Shown here piece by piece: positions 13,068 through 19,964 of a stretch of DNA of 33,119 nucleotides. Position 1 is the first letter of the stretch. The number at the start of each line of letters is the position of its first letter. Made by a program: the position numbers and the translations under genes. The DNA is from Dehalococcoidia bacterium. Its GTDB lineage: Bacteria; Chloroflexota; Dehalococcoidia; GIF9; AB-539-J10. Location of the stretch: NCBI GenBank assembly GCA_021160725.1, contig JAGHCA010000069.1, positions 1-33,119 on the forward strand. The letters are read 5' to 3'. The notes under the pieces were generated by a model that saw only the letters and a list, made by a program, of their open reading frames with translations, did not search any database and was not told the origin of the DNA.

Positions 13068-15257
13068 ATGGCTAATGTATTTGAGTGTTCAATAGCAGGT
13101 AGAGCGCTTGGCATTCAGGTGGGGAAATTTGCTCAGCAAGCGAATGGTACTGTCGCTGTGCGTTATGGTGACACACTTGTCTTGGTTACTGCCTGTCTAA
13201 GCTCTGAAGTCCGAGAGGGAGTCAATTTCGTGCCGCTAACGGTGGATTATGAAGAGAGGCTCTATGCTGCAGGTAAAATACCGGGCAGCTTTATCAGGCG
13301 GGAAGGACGCCCTACTGAGGAAGCGATTATAACTAGTCGCCTCATCGACCGCTCCCTGCGCCCCCTTTTCCCCAAGAAATTTAATTATGATGTTCAGGTT
13401 GTGGCGACGGTCCTATCTGTTGACCAAGAAAATGATCCTGATATTTGTGCCCTTATTGGTGCTTCAGCAGCATTGACATTATCGGATATCCCATTCTTTG
13501 GCCCTATATCGGCAGTGCATGTTGGTTATATAGATGACAATTTTGTTGTGAATCCTACCCTGCCTCAAATGGAAAATAGCTTGCTGGATCTGATTGTTGT
13601 TAGCGGTAAAGAAAATGTTGTAATGGTGGAAGCAAGTGCACGGGAAGTAGTCGAAGAGATATTGCTAGAGGCAATTAAGTTGGGGCACGAAGCAAATCAA
13701 GAAGTTATTAAGATTCAAGAAGAAGCACAGAGAATTTGCGGTAAGGCTAAGGTAGAAATTAAATCTAAAGAAATTGTTCCTGAGCTTTCATCTCAAATCT
13801 CTTCTATACTTAGTGGGGAATTGCAACAGGTTCTAGAGAAGCCAGGGAAATTGCAAAGAGAGAATGCTTTGACGTCTCTCAAAGAAGAAGTGGTGAACAA
13901 ATTGGTTGATTCCTTTGCAGAAGAAGAAATCAATTTCGCTTTTGAAAGCGAGCTTAGAGCTAAAGTGAGAGAGAAAATATTGCAGACAAGGCGACACTTG
14001 GATGGGCGCCAAGCTAAAGAAATTCGGCCCATTAGCTGTGAAGTTGGCATTCTGCCACGCACCCATGGCTCGGGATTATTTGCCCGAGGAGAAACTCAGG
14101 TGTTGACTATTGCTACTTTGGGGTCTACAAGTCGGGAGCAATTATTGGATGGCTTGGGGCTGGAGGAAAGTAAACGCTTCATGCATCATTATAATTTTCC
14201 TCCCTTTTCTACTGGTGAAGTGAAACGAATAGGAGCAACAGGAAGGCGAGAGATTGGGCATGGCGCTTTGGTGGAACGAGCTATTGCCCCGGTATTACCG
14301 ACGGAGGAAGAATTTCCTTACACTATACGCCTGGTTTCTGAAGTGCTTAGTTCTAACGGAAGCACATCTATGGCTAGCGCTTGTGCCTCGACCCTCTCTC
14401 TGATGGATGCAGGTATACCTATCAAGGCGCCTGTGGCCGGGATAGCTATGGGTTTGGTAATGGGAGAAGATGGACATTTTGTTGTCCTGACTGATATTGT
14501 GGGTATGGAAGATGCCTATGGTGACATGGATTTCAAAGTTGCAGGTACAGATCGAGGGCTTACAGCCCTGCAGCTTGATATCAAGCTGCAATCAATAGAT
14601 TATAGCGTGCTGGCTAAAGCTTTAAGCCAAGCTCGTGAGGCGAGGTTGGAAATACTGGAGAAAATGAGTTTGACTATTAGTAGCAGTCGTTCTGAACTCA
14701 GCCCCTATGCTCCTAGGATGTATGAAATAAGAATTGATCCGAGCAAAATTGGGAGCGTTATTGGTCCCGGGGGTAAGGTGATAAGGTCTATTACAGAGGA
14801 AACCAAAACAACTATAGACATAAGAAATGATGGCACAGTTATTGTTGGCTCTTCCAGCGAAGAAGCAGCCCAGAAAGCAATTAAAATGATAGAGGATCTA
14901 ACTCGGGAGGTAGAGCAGGGGGAGATTTACACTGGCAAAGTAACCAGGCTGTTTAATTTTGGTGCTATGGTAGAAATTTTACCGGGGAAGGAGGGGCTGG
15001 TTCATATTAGTGAGCTAGCAAATTACCATGTACCGGTAGTTGAAGATGTGGTTAAGGTGGGTGATGAGATAATGGTAAAAGTTATCGGGATTGATAACTC
15101 GGGGAGAATAAATCTATCGCGCAAAGCAGTATTTGAACGGTTTTCCAATGTCCCTAGTGTCAAGGTCCGAAATTCCTCGGCTTCCAACAAGGACCGCCAG
15201 AAAAAATTCGCTCATTCCCCTGATAGGGGTGAACGGCGCGGTAATCGTAAGCAATAG
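13068..15257 (+). CDS. pnp: Polyribonucleotide nucleotidyltransferase (PNPase)
   Basis: This 729-residue phosphorolytic 3'-5' exoribonuclease has two RNase PH-like domains (about 10-230 and 310-550) joined by the helical linker. It then has a KH domain with GSVIGPGGKVIRSITEE (about 562-578) and an S1 domain starting near 615 (GEIYTGKVTRLFNFGAMVEILPGKEGLVHISEL). Active-site regions such as FIRREGRPTEEAI, RLIDRSLRPLF, LPRTHGSGLFARGETQ and GDMDFKVAGTDRGLTALQLDIK are intact. The last ~35 residues are basic and low in complexity, as is common for the degradosome-facing tail. It is the second gene of the rpsO operon. Confidence 0.97.
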   Translation: MANVFECSIAGRALGIQVGKFAQQANGTVAVRYGDTLVLVTACLSSEVREGVNFVPLTVDYEERLYAAGKIPGSFIRREGRPTEEAIITSRLIDRSLRPLFPKKFNYDVQVVATVLSVDQENDPDICALIGASAALTLSDIPFFGPISAVHVGYIDDNFVVNPTLPQMENSLLDLIVVSGKENVVMVEASAREVVEEILLEAIKLGHEANQEVIKIQEEAQRICGKAKVEIKSKEIVPELSSQISSILSGELQQVLEKPGKLQRENALTSLKEEVVNKLVDSFAEEEINFAFESELRAKVREKILQTRRHLDGRQAKEIRPISCEVGILPRTHGSGLFARGETQVLTIATLGSTSREQLLDGLGLEESKRFMHHYNFPPFSTGEVKRIGATGRREIGHGALVERAIAPVLPTEEEFPYTIRLVSEVLSSNGSTSMASACASTLSLMDAGIPIKAPVAGIAMGLVMGEDGHFVVLTDIVGMEDAYGDMDFKVAGTDRGLTALQLDIKLQSIDYSVLAKALSQAREARLEILEKMSLTISSSRSELSPYAPRMYEIRIDPSKIGSVIGPGGKVIRSITEETKTTIDIRNDGTVIVGSSSEEAAQKAIKMIEDLTREVEQGEIYTGKVTRLFNFGAMVEILPGKEGLVHISELANYHVPVVEDVVKVGDEIMVKVIGIDNSGRINLSRKAVFERFSNVPSVKVRNSSASNKDRQKKFAHSPDRGERRGNRKQ

Positions 15258-15298
15258 ATTGCTTTACTACTGGAGGATGTCATATAGACCCCATAAGA

Positions 15299-16081
15299 GT
15301 GGTTGTTAATGGTGCTTTAGGCAGGATGGGGAGGGAGATAACTAAAGCCGTGGTCTGTGAGCCCGGCTTGAAGTTAGTGGGTGCTGTGGAAAAGGAAGTA
15401 ACTCAGCGATACCTTCCTTTAGCTGAGGCTGTGGAACTGATACCTTTTTCTTCTGATTTAAGCTCGCTTTTAAGAAGCTGTAATGCTGATGTGGTGGTGG
15501 ATTTTACCAATGCCGAGGCTTCCATAGCAGCCGCTCGCATCGCTGTTAAACAGAAGGCCAATATGGTTATTGGCACTACAGGCCTTTCTGAAGAGAATCT
15601 GGCAGAAATTGAGCAATTGTGCATAGCCAACGAGGTAGGGGTGGTAGTAGCACCTAATTTTTCTTTGGGGGCAGCAGTTCTAATTCATTTGTCGAAATTT
15701 GCTGCTAAATTCTTTAACTATGCCGAGATTATCGAGATGCATCATGACAAAAAGGAGTATGCTCCTTCAGGGACTGCTCTAGCTACAGCAAGAGCTATGT
15801 TACAAGCTCGTGGTAAACCATTTATTTTCCCTGAAGTTGAACGCAAAATACTCAACAATACCCGAGGAGGACAGATAAATGGCATAGCTATCCACAGCTT
15901 GAGGTTACCAGGATTTATGGCTGGGGAGGAAGTTATATTTAGCGGAGAGTGTGAAACTCTAAACTTACGTTATACTACTATCGGTCGAGAGTGTTACTTG
16001 CCTGGCATTATCTTGGCAATTAATGAGGTGATAAAACGCAAGGGGCTAACTTACGGATTGGATGCCTTGTTGGAGATGTAG
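15299..16081 (+). CDS. dapB: 4-hydroxy-tetrahydrodipicolinate reductase
   Basis: DapB reduces hydroxy-tetrahydrodipicolinate with NAD(P)H in the diaminopimelate/lysine pathway. The nucleotide-binding NGALGRMG lies at the N-terminus, DVVVDFTNAEA and GTTGLSEENL follow, and the signature EMHHDKKEYAPSGTALATA carries the catalytic His and Lys; the usual Asp before APSGTA is Tyr. The C-terminal LRLPGFMAGEEVIFSGECETLNLRY is family-like. The listed GTG 15299 is the only conventional start, but it lies 22 bases after GGAGG (15272-15276) and cuts off part of the first beta strand. The frame stays open upstream, and ATA at 15284, seven bases after GGAGG, would give MDPIRVVVNGALGRMG and a normal 265 residues. 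The gene lies between pnp and the asd-like gene. Confidence 0.9.
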   Translation: MVVNGALGRMGREITKAVVCEPGLKLVGAVEKEVTQRYLPLAEAVELIPFSSDLSSLLRSCNADVVVDFTNAEASIAAARIAVKQKANMVIGTTGLSEENLAEIEQLCIANEVGVVVAPNFSLGAAVLIHLSKFAAKFFNYAEIIEMHHDKKEYAPSGTALATARAMLQARGKPFIFPEVERKILNNTRGGQINGIAIHSLRLPGFMAGEEVIFSGECETLNLRYTTIGRECYLPGIILAINEVIKRKGLTYGLDALLEM

Positions 16082-16088
16082 GAAGGGC

Positions 16089-17129
16089 ATGAAGGAATTC
16101 AATATAGCTATTATTGGTGCGACCGGAATTGTGGGGCAAGAATTTATCAAGATACTTGAGCAGCGCACTCTCCCTATAGCGTCTGTTCAATTACTAACCT
16201 CTGATCACTCTTCTGGGGCGAAACTATTCTTCAACCATCAAAAACTTGAAGTTGCAGAAGTGAAACCAGAGGTATTTCGTAATGTTGACATTGCTTTTTT
16301 CTTTGCTGGTGCTGAGATTAGTCGAAGATTAGCGCCAGTAGCTGTTGAAGCTGAATCAATGGTCATTGATAATAGCGCTGCCTTCGGAAGGGATACTACG
16401 GTGCCCTTAGTAGTTCCGGAGGTAAATCCGGAGGATATAAAATGGCATAAAGGGATAATTGCCAGTCCAAATGCCCCTACAATCCAAATGGCGGTAGCGC
16501 TTTATCCATTGCACAAGGTCAATCCCATAAAGCGTATCGTGGTAAGTACCTACCAAGCAGTATCAAGTAGTGGTGGTGTTGCCCTGCAAGAGCTGACAAA
16601 TCAAGTGAAGTTGGTTTTAGAAGGGCGCCGTATTTGCCCCCATGTCTATTCTCATCAAATTGCTTTTAATGTACTGCCGGAAGTTGATGTCTTTTTGGAT
16701 AGTGGATATACCGAAGAAGAACAGAGAATAGTAGAAGAAACACGGAGGGTATTGCATGCTGATGACGTAGCGATTTCGGCTACTTGTGTCCGAGTCCCGG
16801 TTTACTTCGGGCATAGTGAATCAGTTAACGTAGAATTTAGCTCGCCTATTACTCCTGGAGAAGCAAGGAAGATTTTGGCTGAAGCCCCAGGGGTCAGAAT
16901 ACTTGATGACCCTACTGTGAGTTTTTATCCTCAACCCTGGGCTGCTAGTGGGTCAAATCATGTATTTGTGGGCCGAATCAGAAAAGACATCTCGCATCCT
17001 AACGGGCTTGTTATGTGGATAGTGGCTGATAATCTGCGTAAAGGGGCAGCGCTAAACGCTGTGCAAATCGCTGAGGCAGGGATAGAGAGAGGTTGGATAG
17101 GCCTTAATAAGAGGTTAGCTGGTTTGTAG
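16089..17129 (+). CDS. asd: Aspartate-semialdehyde dehydrogenase homologue lacking the catalytic cysteine
   Basis: This 346-residue protein has the full ASADH fold and length: NADP-binding AIIGATGIVGQEF (7-19), FFFAGAEISRR (69-80), DNSAAFGRDTTVPLVVPEVN (94-113), STYQAVSSSGG, VRVPVYFGHSESVNVEF with the active-site His, and GRIRKDISHPNGLVMWIVADNLRKGAALNAVQIAE. The nucleophile motif, normally NCST or NCTT, is NAPT here, with GCC for Ala129 at 16473-16475. The conserved SAFR arginine is also displaced (AAFGR). Classical acyl-enzyme chemistry should therefore be impossible; a Usg-1-like non-enzymatic paralogue is a known precedent. Start ATG 16089 follows GGAAGG, seven bases after dapB. A dapA remnant overlaps its stop. 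Confidence 0.85.
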   Translation: MKEFNIAIIGATGIVGQEFIKILEQRTLPIASVQLLTSDHSSGAKLFFNHQKLEVAEVKPEVFRNVDIAFFFAGAEISRRLAPVAVEAESMVIDNSAAFGRDTTVPLVVPEVNPEDIKWHKGIIASPNAPTIQMAVALYPLHKVNPIKRIVVSTYQAVSSSGGVALQELTNQVKLVLEGRRICPHVYSHQIAFNVLPEVDVFLDSGYTEEEQRIVEETRRVLHADDVAISATCVRVPVYFGHSESVNVEFSSPITPGEARKILAEAPGVRILDDPTVSFYPQPWAASGSNHVFVGRIRKDISHPNGLVMWIVADNLRKGAALNAVQIAEAGIERGWIGLNKRLAGL

Positions 17130-17278
17130 TGAATAAGCGAGGCAGCTTACTAACAGCTACCGTTATGTCTTTTGACACTCAAGGCAAGGTTAACTCCCAA
17201 CAAACTAAGAAGCTGGCAGTCTCAGACACCACTGGCAAATCTTCTACTCGTAGTTTAGCCTGGCGAAGAATCAGCTAA
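17129..17278 (+). pseudogene. dapA: dapA remnant (4-hydroxy-tetrahydrodipicolinate synthase N-terminus)
   Basis: GTG 17129 shares its G with the asd TAG stop, and the frame runs 49 codons to TAA 17276-17278. The translation matches the DapA N-terminus: GSLLTATVMSFDTQGKVN parallels G.ltAmvTPFde.GkVd, and QQTKKLA parallels the first helix. VSDTTGKSSTRS then parallels V.GTTGESpTLs. About 13 residues between these blocks (the H.v..G.dgl part) are missing in frame, TP has become MS, and the TTGE glutamate is Lys. Nothing DapA-like follows the stop before the convergent purA ends at 17351. This is a decayed gene that kept its translational coupling to asd. Confidence 0.75.
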
Positions 17279-17350
17279 TCTCATACAGACAACACTAAGG
17301 GAACTATGGAATGGGGATTTGCCTATCTCCCAGTTGATGACTAGTAATTG

Positions 17351-18637
17351 TCAACTGAAGAACTCTTTAACCGATATTATTTGCCGCCTATCTGGCCCCA
17401 CGGAAACGAGGTTGATGGGGCAGGACAAGAGCTCTTCAAGACGGGACATATAATTGCGGGCTTCTGCTGGCAGCTTGTCAAAATTTCGGATTCCACTTAT
17501 TGATTCTTCCCAGCCTTCCACCTCTTCGTAGATAGGTTGGCATTTCTCCAATATGTCTAAATTGCTAGGGAAAGAGGTTATAACCTCATCGTTGAATTTG
17601 TAGGCGGTACATATTTTGATTTGAGAGAAACCATCATAAATATCGAGGTGAGTTAGAGCTATGTCAGTAATGCCATTTATTTGCACGCTGAAGCGCCCTG
17701 CCACGGCATCAAACCAACCACATCTTCGCGGCCTTCCCGTGGTAGCGCCATACTCGTGGGCTTTTTCTCGTATTAAGTTACCGGTTTCATCCTTGAGCTC
17801 TGTAGGCATGGGACCGGCCCCAACTCTGGTGTTATATGCCTTAAACACGCCCACCACGCGGTCGATTTCTTTTGGGCCTAGGCCTACTCCAACACAGCCT
17901 GCCGCAGCCAACGGTGAAGAAGAGGTCACGTAAGGATAAGTGCCGAAGTCAGGGTCAAGTAAAGCTCCCTGGGCACCTTCCAATAAAACTGGCTCTCCTT
18001 TTGCCACCGCTTCGTGAATCATGGAGCTAGTTTCCTGAATGAAAGAAGCTATCTGTTCTCCATAATGACAGTATTGGTTATAAATTTCTTCTAATGAGAG
18101 GGGAGAGGCTTGGTATACTTCTGTCAGGATGATATTCTTAAGCTCAAGAGCTGCACTCAAACGGTTCCGAAATGTCTCCTTATCTAATAAATCTCCAACA
18201 CGAATTCCCGAACGAGCTACTTTATCGGCAAAGGCAGGGCCAATGCCTCTGCGCGTAGTACCCAGTGCTCCTTTACTACGCCTTTCCTCTTCCAGCGCGT
18301 CGAGAAGAGTATGATAAGGCATGATCAGGTGAGCACGGTCACTGACAAAAAGGCGATTTGTATCTACACCATGATTAGATAGGTCTTTTATCTCTTGAAG
18401 AAGTACCGCTGGGTTAATAACCACTCCATTGCCAATAATGCAAGTTACCTCGGGATAAAAGATGCCCGAAGGGATAAGATGTAAACGGAACTCGCCATGA
18501 GGGTTGACTACAGTGTGGCCAGCATTATCTCCTCCAGAGAACCGAGCGACTATCTTTGCTTTCTTGGCCAAAAGGTCGATTATCTTCCCTTTACCTTCGT
18601 CACCCCATTGCCCGCCTACAATAGTCACAACAGCCAT
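17351..18637 (-). CDS. purA: Adenylosuccinate synthetase
   Basis: This 428-residue enzyme joins IMP and aspartate with GTP hydrolysis on the way to AMP. The N-terminal GGQWGDEGKGKIIDLLA (8-24) is the GTP-binding/catalytic loop. It is followed by RFSGGDNAGHTVV with the catalytic His, GTTRRGIGPAFADK, LEGAQGALLDPDFGTYPYVTSS and GATTGRPRRCGWFD. Length is typical. Its ATG follows directly on the TAA of the CDP-alcohol phosphotransferase gene (TAAATG), so it is the last gene of the inositol-lipid operon on the minus strand, not part of the purF cluster. Confidence 0.97.
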   Translation of the reverse strand: MAVVTIVGGQWGDEGKGKIIDLLAKKAKIVARFSGGDNAGHTVVNPHGEFRLHLIPSGIFYPEVTCIIGNGVVINPAVLLQEIKDLSNHGVDTNRLFVSDRAHLIMPYHTLLDALEEERRSKGALGTTRRGIGPAFADKVARSGIRVGDLLDKETFRNRLSAALELKNIILTEVYQASPLSLEEIYNQYCHYGEQIASFIQETSSMIHEAVAKGEPVLLEGAQGALLDPDFGTYPYVTSSSPLAAAGCVGVGLGPKEIDRVVGVFKAYNTRVGAGPMPTELKDETGNLIREKAHEYGATTGRPRRCGWFDAVAGRFSVQINGITDIALTHLDIYDGFSQIKICTAYKFNDEVITSFPSNLDILEKCQPIYEEVEGWEESISGIRNFDKLPAEARNYMSRLEELLSCPINLVSVGPDRRQIISVKEFFS

Positions 18638-19256: not shown

Positions 19257-19964
19257 CTAGCCTGCTATACCTTCCTTTTGCAGGAAATTGACTACCCCTT
19301 GTATTTGATCTTCGTCATTCCACTCGCCGATTTCACAAACCTTCACTATTCCCGGCGGTAAGTATGTGGTTAACATTTCCCAATTCACATCTCCTTTGCC
19401 CGGGGCCTGATGATCAGAGAGGCCAAGAACATCGTGCAAGTGGGTGCCACTCATTCTATGTTTGAACCATAAAAGCCATTCTCCATGCGAGCTAAAGCCA
19501 ATCTGCTGTTGAACTTCAAGGTAGGGGTGGACTTGGGAAATGAGCTGGTAAACGAATTCTTCTTTGGCTTGGATATATTCTTTAGTTTGAGTGTTGCTCT
19601 TGGTGCAAAATGTATACAGCCTATCTTGCAAACTCAGGTCAATTGGCACTTCACCCATGTGGAGCACAATAGCTTTGGCACTCACATTTGACGCAAGGTC
19701 TATTGTTTGCTTGGTAAAGCTAACAACCTCTATTCGCTCACTCTCGTCCAGAGGACTTAAAGAAAGGCTACTTGCGGAGATTCCTCTGGTTGATAATACC
19801 GCCGGGCAGGGAGAATGAATGCTGGAAATAGAGACTGTGGACTCAAGGAGTTCACTAATCATTCTTGGGAAAATTGAAGCATTTGCTTCTAGGTGAATAA
19901 AGCCCAGTTCTTTAGCTTTGGCGGCAAATTCCGCCATGTGGCTAAATCTACCTTTTGCCCACAT
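19257..19964 (-). CDS. TIM-barrel protein, sugar phosphate isomerase/epimerase-like
   Basis: This 235-residue protein resembles the xylose isomerase-like / AP endonuclease 2 superfamily: AKAKELGFIHLEANA at the first strand-helix, ISSIHSPCPAV, VSAKAIVLHMGEVP, GTHLHDVLGLSDHQAPGKGDVNWEMLTTYLP and CEIGEWNDE near the end. The His, Asp and Glu residues in these strands (IHSP, LHMGE, LHDV, CEIGE) are positioned like the metal ligands of this fold. It lies between inositol-phosphate synthase and the CDP-alcohol phosphotransferase, so it may act on inositol phosphate or another head-group sugar. No exact reaction can be assigned. Confidence 0.7.
   Translation of the reverse strand: MWAKGRFSHMAEFAAKAKELGFIHLEANASIFPRMISELLESTVSISSIHSPCPAVLSTRGISASSLSLSPLDESERIEVVSFTKQTIDLASNVSAKAIVLHMGEVPIDLSLQDRLYTFCTKSNTQTKEYIQAKEEFVYQLISQVHPYLEVQQQIGFSSHGEWLLWFKHRMSGTHLHDVLGLSDHQAPGKGDVNWEMLTTYLPPGIVKVCEIGEWNDEDQIQGVVNFLQKEGIAG

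Follow-up and report, generated by a model that had tools for sequence, protein, structure and literature searches.

DapB and Asd are well-studied antibacterial targets. The loss of a biosynthetic pathway normally removes all of its genes. The locus described here lies on a DNA stretch of 33,119 nt (the window) from a Dehalococcoidia metagenome-assembled genome, or MAG (G000; 1.45 Mb, 104 contigs, 96% complete), and contains a dapB gene and an asd-like gene (asd1). Asd1 resembles the asd_B ASADH enzymes of S. pneumoniae (2GYY) and T. thermophilus (2YV3) in full-length homology and in predicted fold. However, the window Asd1 lacks the catalytic Cys and Arg99, and in eight relatives (clade A) Asd1 is found without the pathway. 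The searches also matched Asd1 to an Asd homologue of P. aeruginosa, the USG-1 protein homologue (PDB 2HJS), which we take to be Asd-like with an unclear role. The USG-1 homologue has another subfamily and gene neighbourhood, whereas Asd1 is the original dapB-linked gene. The window DapB is comparable to the M. tuberculosis DapB (4-hydroxy-tetrahydrodipicolinate reductase, 1C3V) in equivalog score and predicted fold, but it has no DapA for its substrate, most clade A members no longer have the catalytic His, and the window gene begins with ATA. A second Asd of the same genome (Asd2) belongs to the archaeal/eukaryal type (asd_EA, PRK08664; M. jannaschii 1YS4) and is presumed to be a functional replacement. 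The literature searched contained nothing relevant on Asd pseudoenzymes, DapB moonlighting, USG-1, or lysine auxotrophy in Dehalococcoidia, and no report of dapB-asd1 outliving the lysine pathway.

In eight species, DapB and Asd1 have survived the loss of all other members of their textbook pathway, under selection like that on purA and pnp and with eroding catalytic residues. We consider it likely that the DapB-Asd1 pair persists for a putative non-lysine role, probably as near-pseudoenzymes, after relief by Asd2 and the loss of lysine synthesis.

Organization of the locus

The features of the locus are listed in Table 1. The sister species is represented by locus L031 (genome G005), whose Asd1 is 89% identical to that of the window. 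Every related locus came from a Dehalococcoidia/Chloroflexota MAG, all the compared genomes are MAGs, and the completeness of the clade A genomes is 69-95%. The pnp-dapB-asd adjacency is kept class-wide, in nearly all of the Dehalococcoidia loci fetched. The neighbours pnp and purA had been described as intact, and both are indeed open and constrained by dN/dS.

Table 1. Positions of the locus features in the window.
Feature	Position	Strand	Evidence
pnp (polynucleotide phosphorylase), intact upstream neighbour	13068..15257	+	ORF, adjacency table, dN/dS control
GGAGG, Shine-Dalgarno-like site of dapB	15272..15276	+	sequence; same place before ATG in sister L031
dapB, ATA for ancestral ATG, otherwise open	15284..16081	+	alignment, TIGR00036
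asd1 (Asd-like protein), full length, non-catalytic active site	16089..17129	+	TIGR01296, alignment, predicted fold
Arg99 codon (phosphate-binding) changed to GGA (Gly)	16386..16388	+	window; absent from sister L031
Catalytic Cys codon changed to GCC (Ala); Cys128, S. pneumoniae ASADH numbering	16473..16475	+	common to sister
5' part of dapA remnant, 49-codon frame	17129..17278	+	ORF, comparison with sister
3' part of dapA remnant, different frame	17241..17330	+	breakpoint common to sister L031
purA, intact convergent neighbour	17351..18637	-	ORF, dN/dS control

Loss of the lysine pathway

The 49-codon frame encodes the DapA N-terminus, and the C-terminus ('PGEESANLIQTTLRELWNGDLPIS') is encoded in another frame. 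An internal deletion has removed most of the gene and, together with a frameshift, leaves no intact DHDPS frame. The sister locus has the same junction of N- and C-terminal parts, plus a frameshift and stops. The preliminary description of dapA as an internally deleted remnant therefore holds for both species. At the clade A loci, the adjacent dapA is reduced to unrecognisable scraps.

The genome-wide search of G000 found no DHDPS, no DAP epimerase (DapF), and no LysA-type decarboxylase; no PF00701 (DapA) match that could supply the DapB substrate was found anywhere in this genome. DAP-route lysine synthesis has therefore been lost, which was one of the two possibilities proposed earlier. The outcome to be set against pathway-specific damage was a functional asd and dapA elsewhere, with the three genes absent or random in relatives. 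A canonical second Asd is indeed present, but dapA, dapF, and lysA are not, and in relatives dapB and asd1 are both present and non-random. G000 keeps lysC, hom, and Asd2, which is of the archaeal type, has an intact PNCTTT motif, and is encoded close to lysC. Asd2 presumably supplies the Thr/Met branch. The sister genome keeps dapF, but has a lysA truncated to 146 residues within a 62.9-kb contig, which suggests that the loss of lysine genes has been progressive in the window pair. G000 has a single Mur-ligase-family protein, and its relatives have at most one per genome, which is probably FolC; thus no peptidoglycan synthesis is apparent, as had been suggested.

Clade A comprises G002, G004, G007, G008, G011, G013, G014, and G018 (loci L038, L037, L047, L035, L052, L033, L050, and L048). 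The dapA, dapF, lysA, lysC, and hom genes are absent in all eight genomes, apart from a sub-threshold hom scrap in G008. The losses were possibly staggered, since G008 still has this scrap and Asd2. In these genomes, dapB and asd taken by themselves would lead to an erroneous annotation of lysine synthesis. The species tree was built on PurA, CDP-alcohol transferase, and Pnp. Its best topology separates clade A from the window pair, which means two dapA losses; a single origin is compatible with the strongly supported branches alone. The different dapA remnants of the two groups also favour two losses.

Amino-acid synthesis appears to be broadly lost in clade A, where the genes for Lys, for the Thr/Met entry, and, where searched, for Arg are missing together. 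ArgC is absent in clade A, and ArgJ is absent in the six members searched; a role of Asd1 as a stand-in for ArgC was therefore rejected. In G008 (L165, contig C20), lysC is deleted from between conserved neighbours, and the nearby intact Asd2 is 89% identical to that of the window. A partial second Asd2 copy lies behind the intact one, and a similar partial copy is present in G012 (L167).

Active-site residues of Asd1 and DapB

The window Asd1 matches TIGR01296 (asd_B) over its full length with 416 bits (equivalog cut-off, 324). The motif at the catalytic Cys is NPNCST in active ASADH, SPNAPT in the window, and SPNAST in the sister. The reported lack of the catalytic cysteine is thus real, and Ala takes its place in both species. 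The Cys is kept in the other 15 genus members compared. The tree requires four changes for its losses, which fall in at least three lineages, with Ala in the window pair and Ser in L055 and in L093/L098/L105. Of the residues presumed to bind substrate from established ASADH knowledge (Arg99, Gln155, Arg245, and His252), the window Asd1 has R99G and keeps the other three. Gln155 varies across the genus. Most genus members, including those with dapA, lack Asn127, Gln155, a Rossmann glycine, or Arg99. At seven Asd1 positions, several of them adjoining the active site, new residues have become fixed, or nearly so, throughout the genus. The predicted Asd1 structures match the ASADH fold (best TM 0.86-0.88), with weak confidence near the active-site loops.

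The window DapB scores 215 bits against TIGR00036 (equivalog cut-off, 122), and keeps the GxxGRMG, HH..K, and PSGT motifs. Two substitutions, A158E and D159Y, adjoin PSGT. All 62 outgroup sequences and all seven dapA-bearing genus sequences have an intact HH..K, but six of the eight clade A members have an altered one (H159Q or H160D/N/S); two clade A members also have G169A/S. The loss of His159/His160 is confined to lineages without dapA, and GxxGRMG is retained wherever sequenced. The predicted structures match the DapB fold (TM about 0.7-0.8), again with weak confidence near the active-site loops. Most Asd1 proteins of the genus and most DapB proteins of clade A have therefore lost catalytic residues and kept their predicted fold. 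One clade A member, L033, has all the canonical catalytic residues in both proteins.

As described earlier, the window dapB has no conventional start at the right place. Aligned to relatives, its frame opens at ATA, 7 nt past GGAGG, and no in-frame ATG, GTG, or TTG lies upstream of the GTG at 15299 as far as the upstream stop. The sister has ATG at this codon, so the window start is explained by a single ATG to ATA change, which was seen in the window genome only. The window dapB may be newly start-impaired, with either weak expression of DapB or the onset of dapB loss in this species. Together with the extra Asd1 substitutions, the ATA start may indicate that the window species is starting to lose the pair. 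The proposed coordinated erosion of dapB, asd1, and dapA was not one event, because the erosion of Asd1 is genus-wide and preceded the dapA loss, whereas the dapB start change is limited to the window genome.

The two proteins could also still be catalysts with altered substrates, performing two dehydrogenase steps outside amino-acid synthesis. DapB retains GxxGRMG, GTTG, and Lys163. In Asd1, Arg245 and His252 are retained in nearly all genus members, and the active-site neighbours 126, 160, 161, and 212 are among the positions newly fixed across the genus. However, the window pair and the Ser-bearing lineages have lost the Asd1 nucleophile, and the Rossmann glycines, Asn127, and Gln155 of Asd1 differ between close species. 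Position 160 of DapB likewise varies among D, N, S, and H in close species, whereas a new active site would be expected to be conserved. We regard altered-substrate catalysis as unlikely, although it is the best placed of the alternatives.

A separate Dehalococcoidia group (L086, L092, L093, L094, L096, L098, and L105) has an intact dapA and an Asd1 in which Arg99, Asn127, and His252 are replaced. Three of its members also have C128S, and each member has an Asd2 elsewhere. The Asd1 erosion in this group is independent of that in the window genus.

Retention and selection after pathway loss

All eight clade A genomes keep dapB and asd1 as open frames, with contig edges limiting two of them. Genus-wide, DapB_C and Asd1 are each found in 19 of the 20 genomes; in the remaining one, G010, the entire locus is missing. 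No stop or frameshift was found in asd1 in any of the 10 genomes without dapA. The decay of the clade A dapA to scraps indicates that there was enough time for unselected sequence to vanish at this locus. The comparison of the same locus in relatives, which had been recommended, thus showed dapB-asd1 kept, with the Cys to Ala change and the dapA breakpoint shared by the sister.

The recommended dN/dS estimate showed both genes to be constrained. Within clade A, asd1 has a pairwise dN/dS (NG86) of 0.06-0.13 and dapB one of 0.07-0.19, in the same range as PurA/Pnp. Part of this divergence could predate the loss, so changes were polarised on post-loss branches. This post-loss test covers two species pairs with modest counts, one of which (L035/L037) shares a clean dapA deletion. 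In L035/L037, asd1 has N 12 and S 35 (0.13-0.15 of neutral, p about 1e-10), and dapB has N 13 and S 20 (0.25-0.30 of neutral, p ≤ 5e-4). In the window/L031 pair, asd1 is at 0.31-0.37 of neutral (p < 2e-6) and dapB at 0.36-0.44 (p < 2e-4). On the window branch alone, dapB and asd1 are constrained to a similar degree, and slightly but non-significantly looser than PurA+Pnp (odds ratio 1.44, p = 0.10). Both dapB and asd1 are under purifying selection after the pathway loss.

These data bear on plain ongoing decay, in which lysine synthesis was lost recently, dapA degraded first, and dapB and asd1 are merely not yet degraded. The window species fits such a course in part, with the dapB start and the Asd1 Cys and Arg99 lost and selection slightly relaxed in the pair, and the truncated sister lysA indicates a loss under way. 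However, the post-loss N/S ratios are well under neutral, asd1 is uninterrupted wherever dapA is missing, and clade A keeps both frames in every member though its dapA is in scraps and dapF, lysA, lysC, and hom are gone. Decay of this kind is improbable, slightly more so than altered-substrate catalysis.

The persistence of a normal pathway, with DAP synthesis sustained by a non-homologous or unassembled DapA, DapF, or LysA, is very improbable: the MAGs are incomplete, but the same five genes, aspartokinase and homoserine dehydrogenase included, are jointly missing in eight MAGs and present in sisters, and the DapB catalytic His is lost exactly in those genomes. The least credible explanation is that each of the three window defects stems from an error in sequencing or assembly, because the dapA breakpoint and the Cys to Ala change are common to the independently assembled sister, which refutes error at asd1 and dapA; the ATA start, seen in a single genome, could be one. 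Operon polarity is also an unlikely cause of retention, with only the convergent purA downstream.

Asd2 and the possible function of the pair

The presence of a canonical Asd2 would explain how the Asd1 Cys could be lost. Outside the genus, a non-canonical Asd1 was found in all 14 genomes with Asd2, versus four of the 36 without it (Fisher 3e-9), in related taxa that offer only one to three informative independent contrasts, too few for significance. Despite the strong raw count, the acquisition of Asd2 as a statistically demonstrated cause was dropped. It is plausible that Asd2 relieved Asd1 of catalysis.

Retention for a non-lysine role probably came about as follows. With catalysis supplied by Asd2, the dapB-linked Asd1 would have shed its catalytic and cofactor residues stepwise; the residue losses are observed, and the cause is suggested by the presence of Asd2. 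On the best tree, two dapA losses would then have followed, one in the window pair and one in clade A. The window species has lost DAP-route lysine synthesis and would continue Thr/Met synthesis via lysC, Asd2, and hom. DapB and Asd1 would be retained for a function that needs no dapA and, in clade A, no other aspartate-pathway enzyme. The pair would most likely form a structural or regulatory module of co-expressed, fold-preserving near-pseudoenzymes; Asd1 retains its conserved core along with its fold, and DapB may still bind NAD(P)H, as its binding motif is kept. The repurposing suggested in the preliminary description appears to apply, given the post-loss constraint and the retention in eight relatives without the aspartate pathway. 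These genomes offer a natural separation of catalysis from a putative second function of DapB and Asd, and so allow a testable search for it.

More tentatively, the DapB and Asd1 of Dehalococcoidia might always have shared a second function of a non-catalytic kind, which becomes visible only where the lysine pathway is lost and they survive as paired pseudoenzymes; this broader proposal is possible but falls short of being likely. The class-wide pnp-dapB-asd order suggests a link to RNA turnover, for example through a complex. The idea of a PNPase partner is weakened by L033 (G013), where pnp is apparently cut to its first ~177 codons (~1229-1760) directly before intact dapB-asd1. This shortening could be either a real deletion or an assembly join.

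Another gene of the window is possibly inactivated as well. The sugar-isomerase-like protein (xylose isomerase-type TIM barrel) encoded at 19257-19964 on the minus strand has 235 aa, versus the ~340-aa open frame in L045, and an internal stretch of ~55 residues, including the GLETR motif, is gone.
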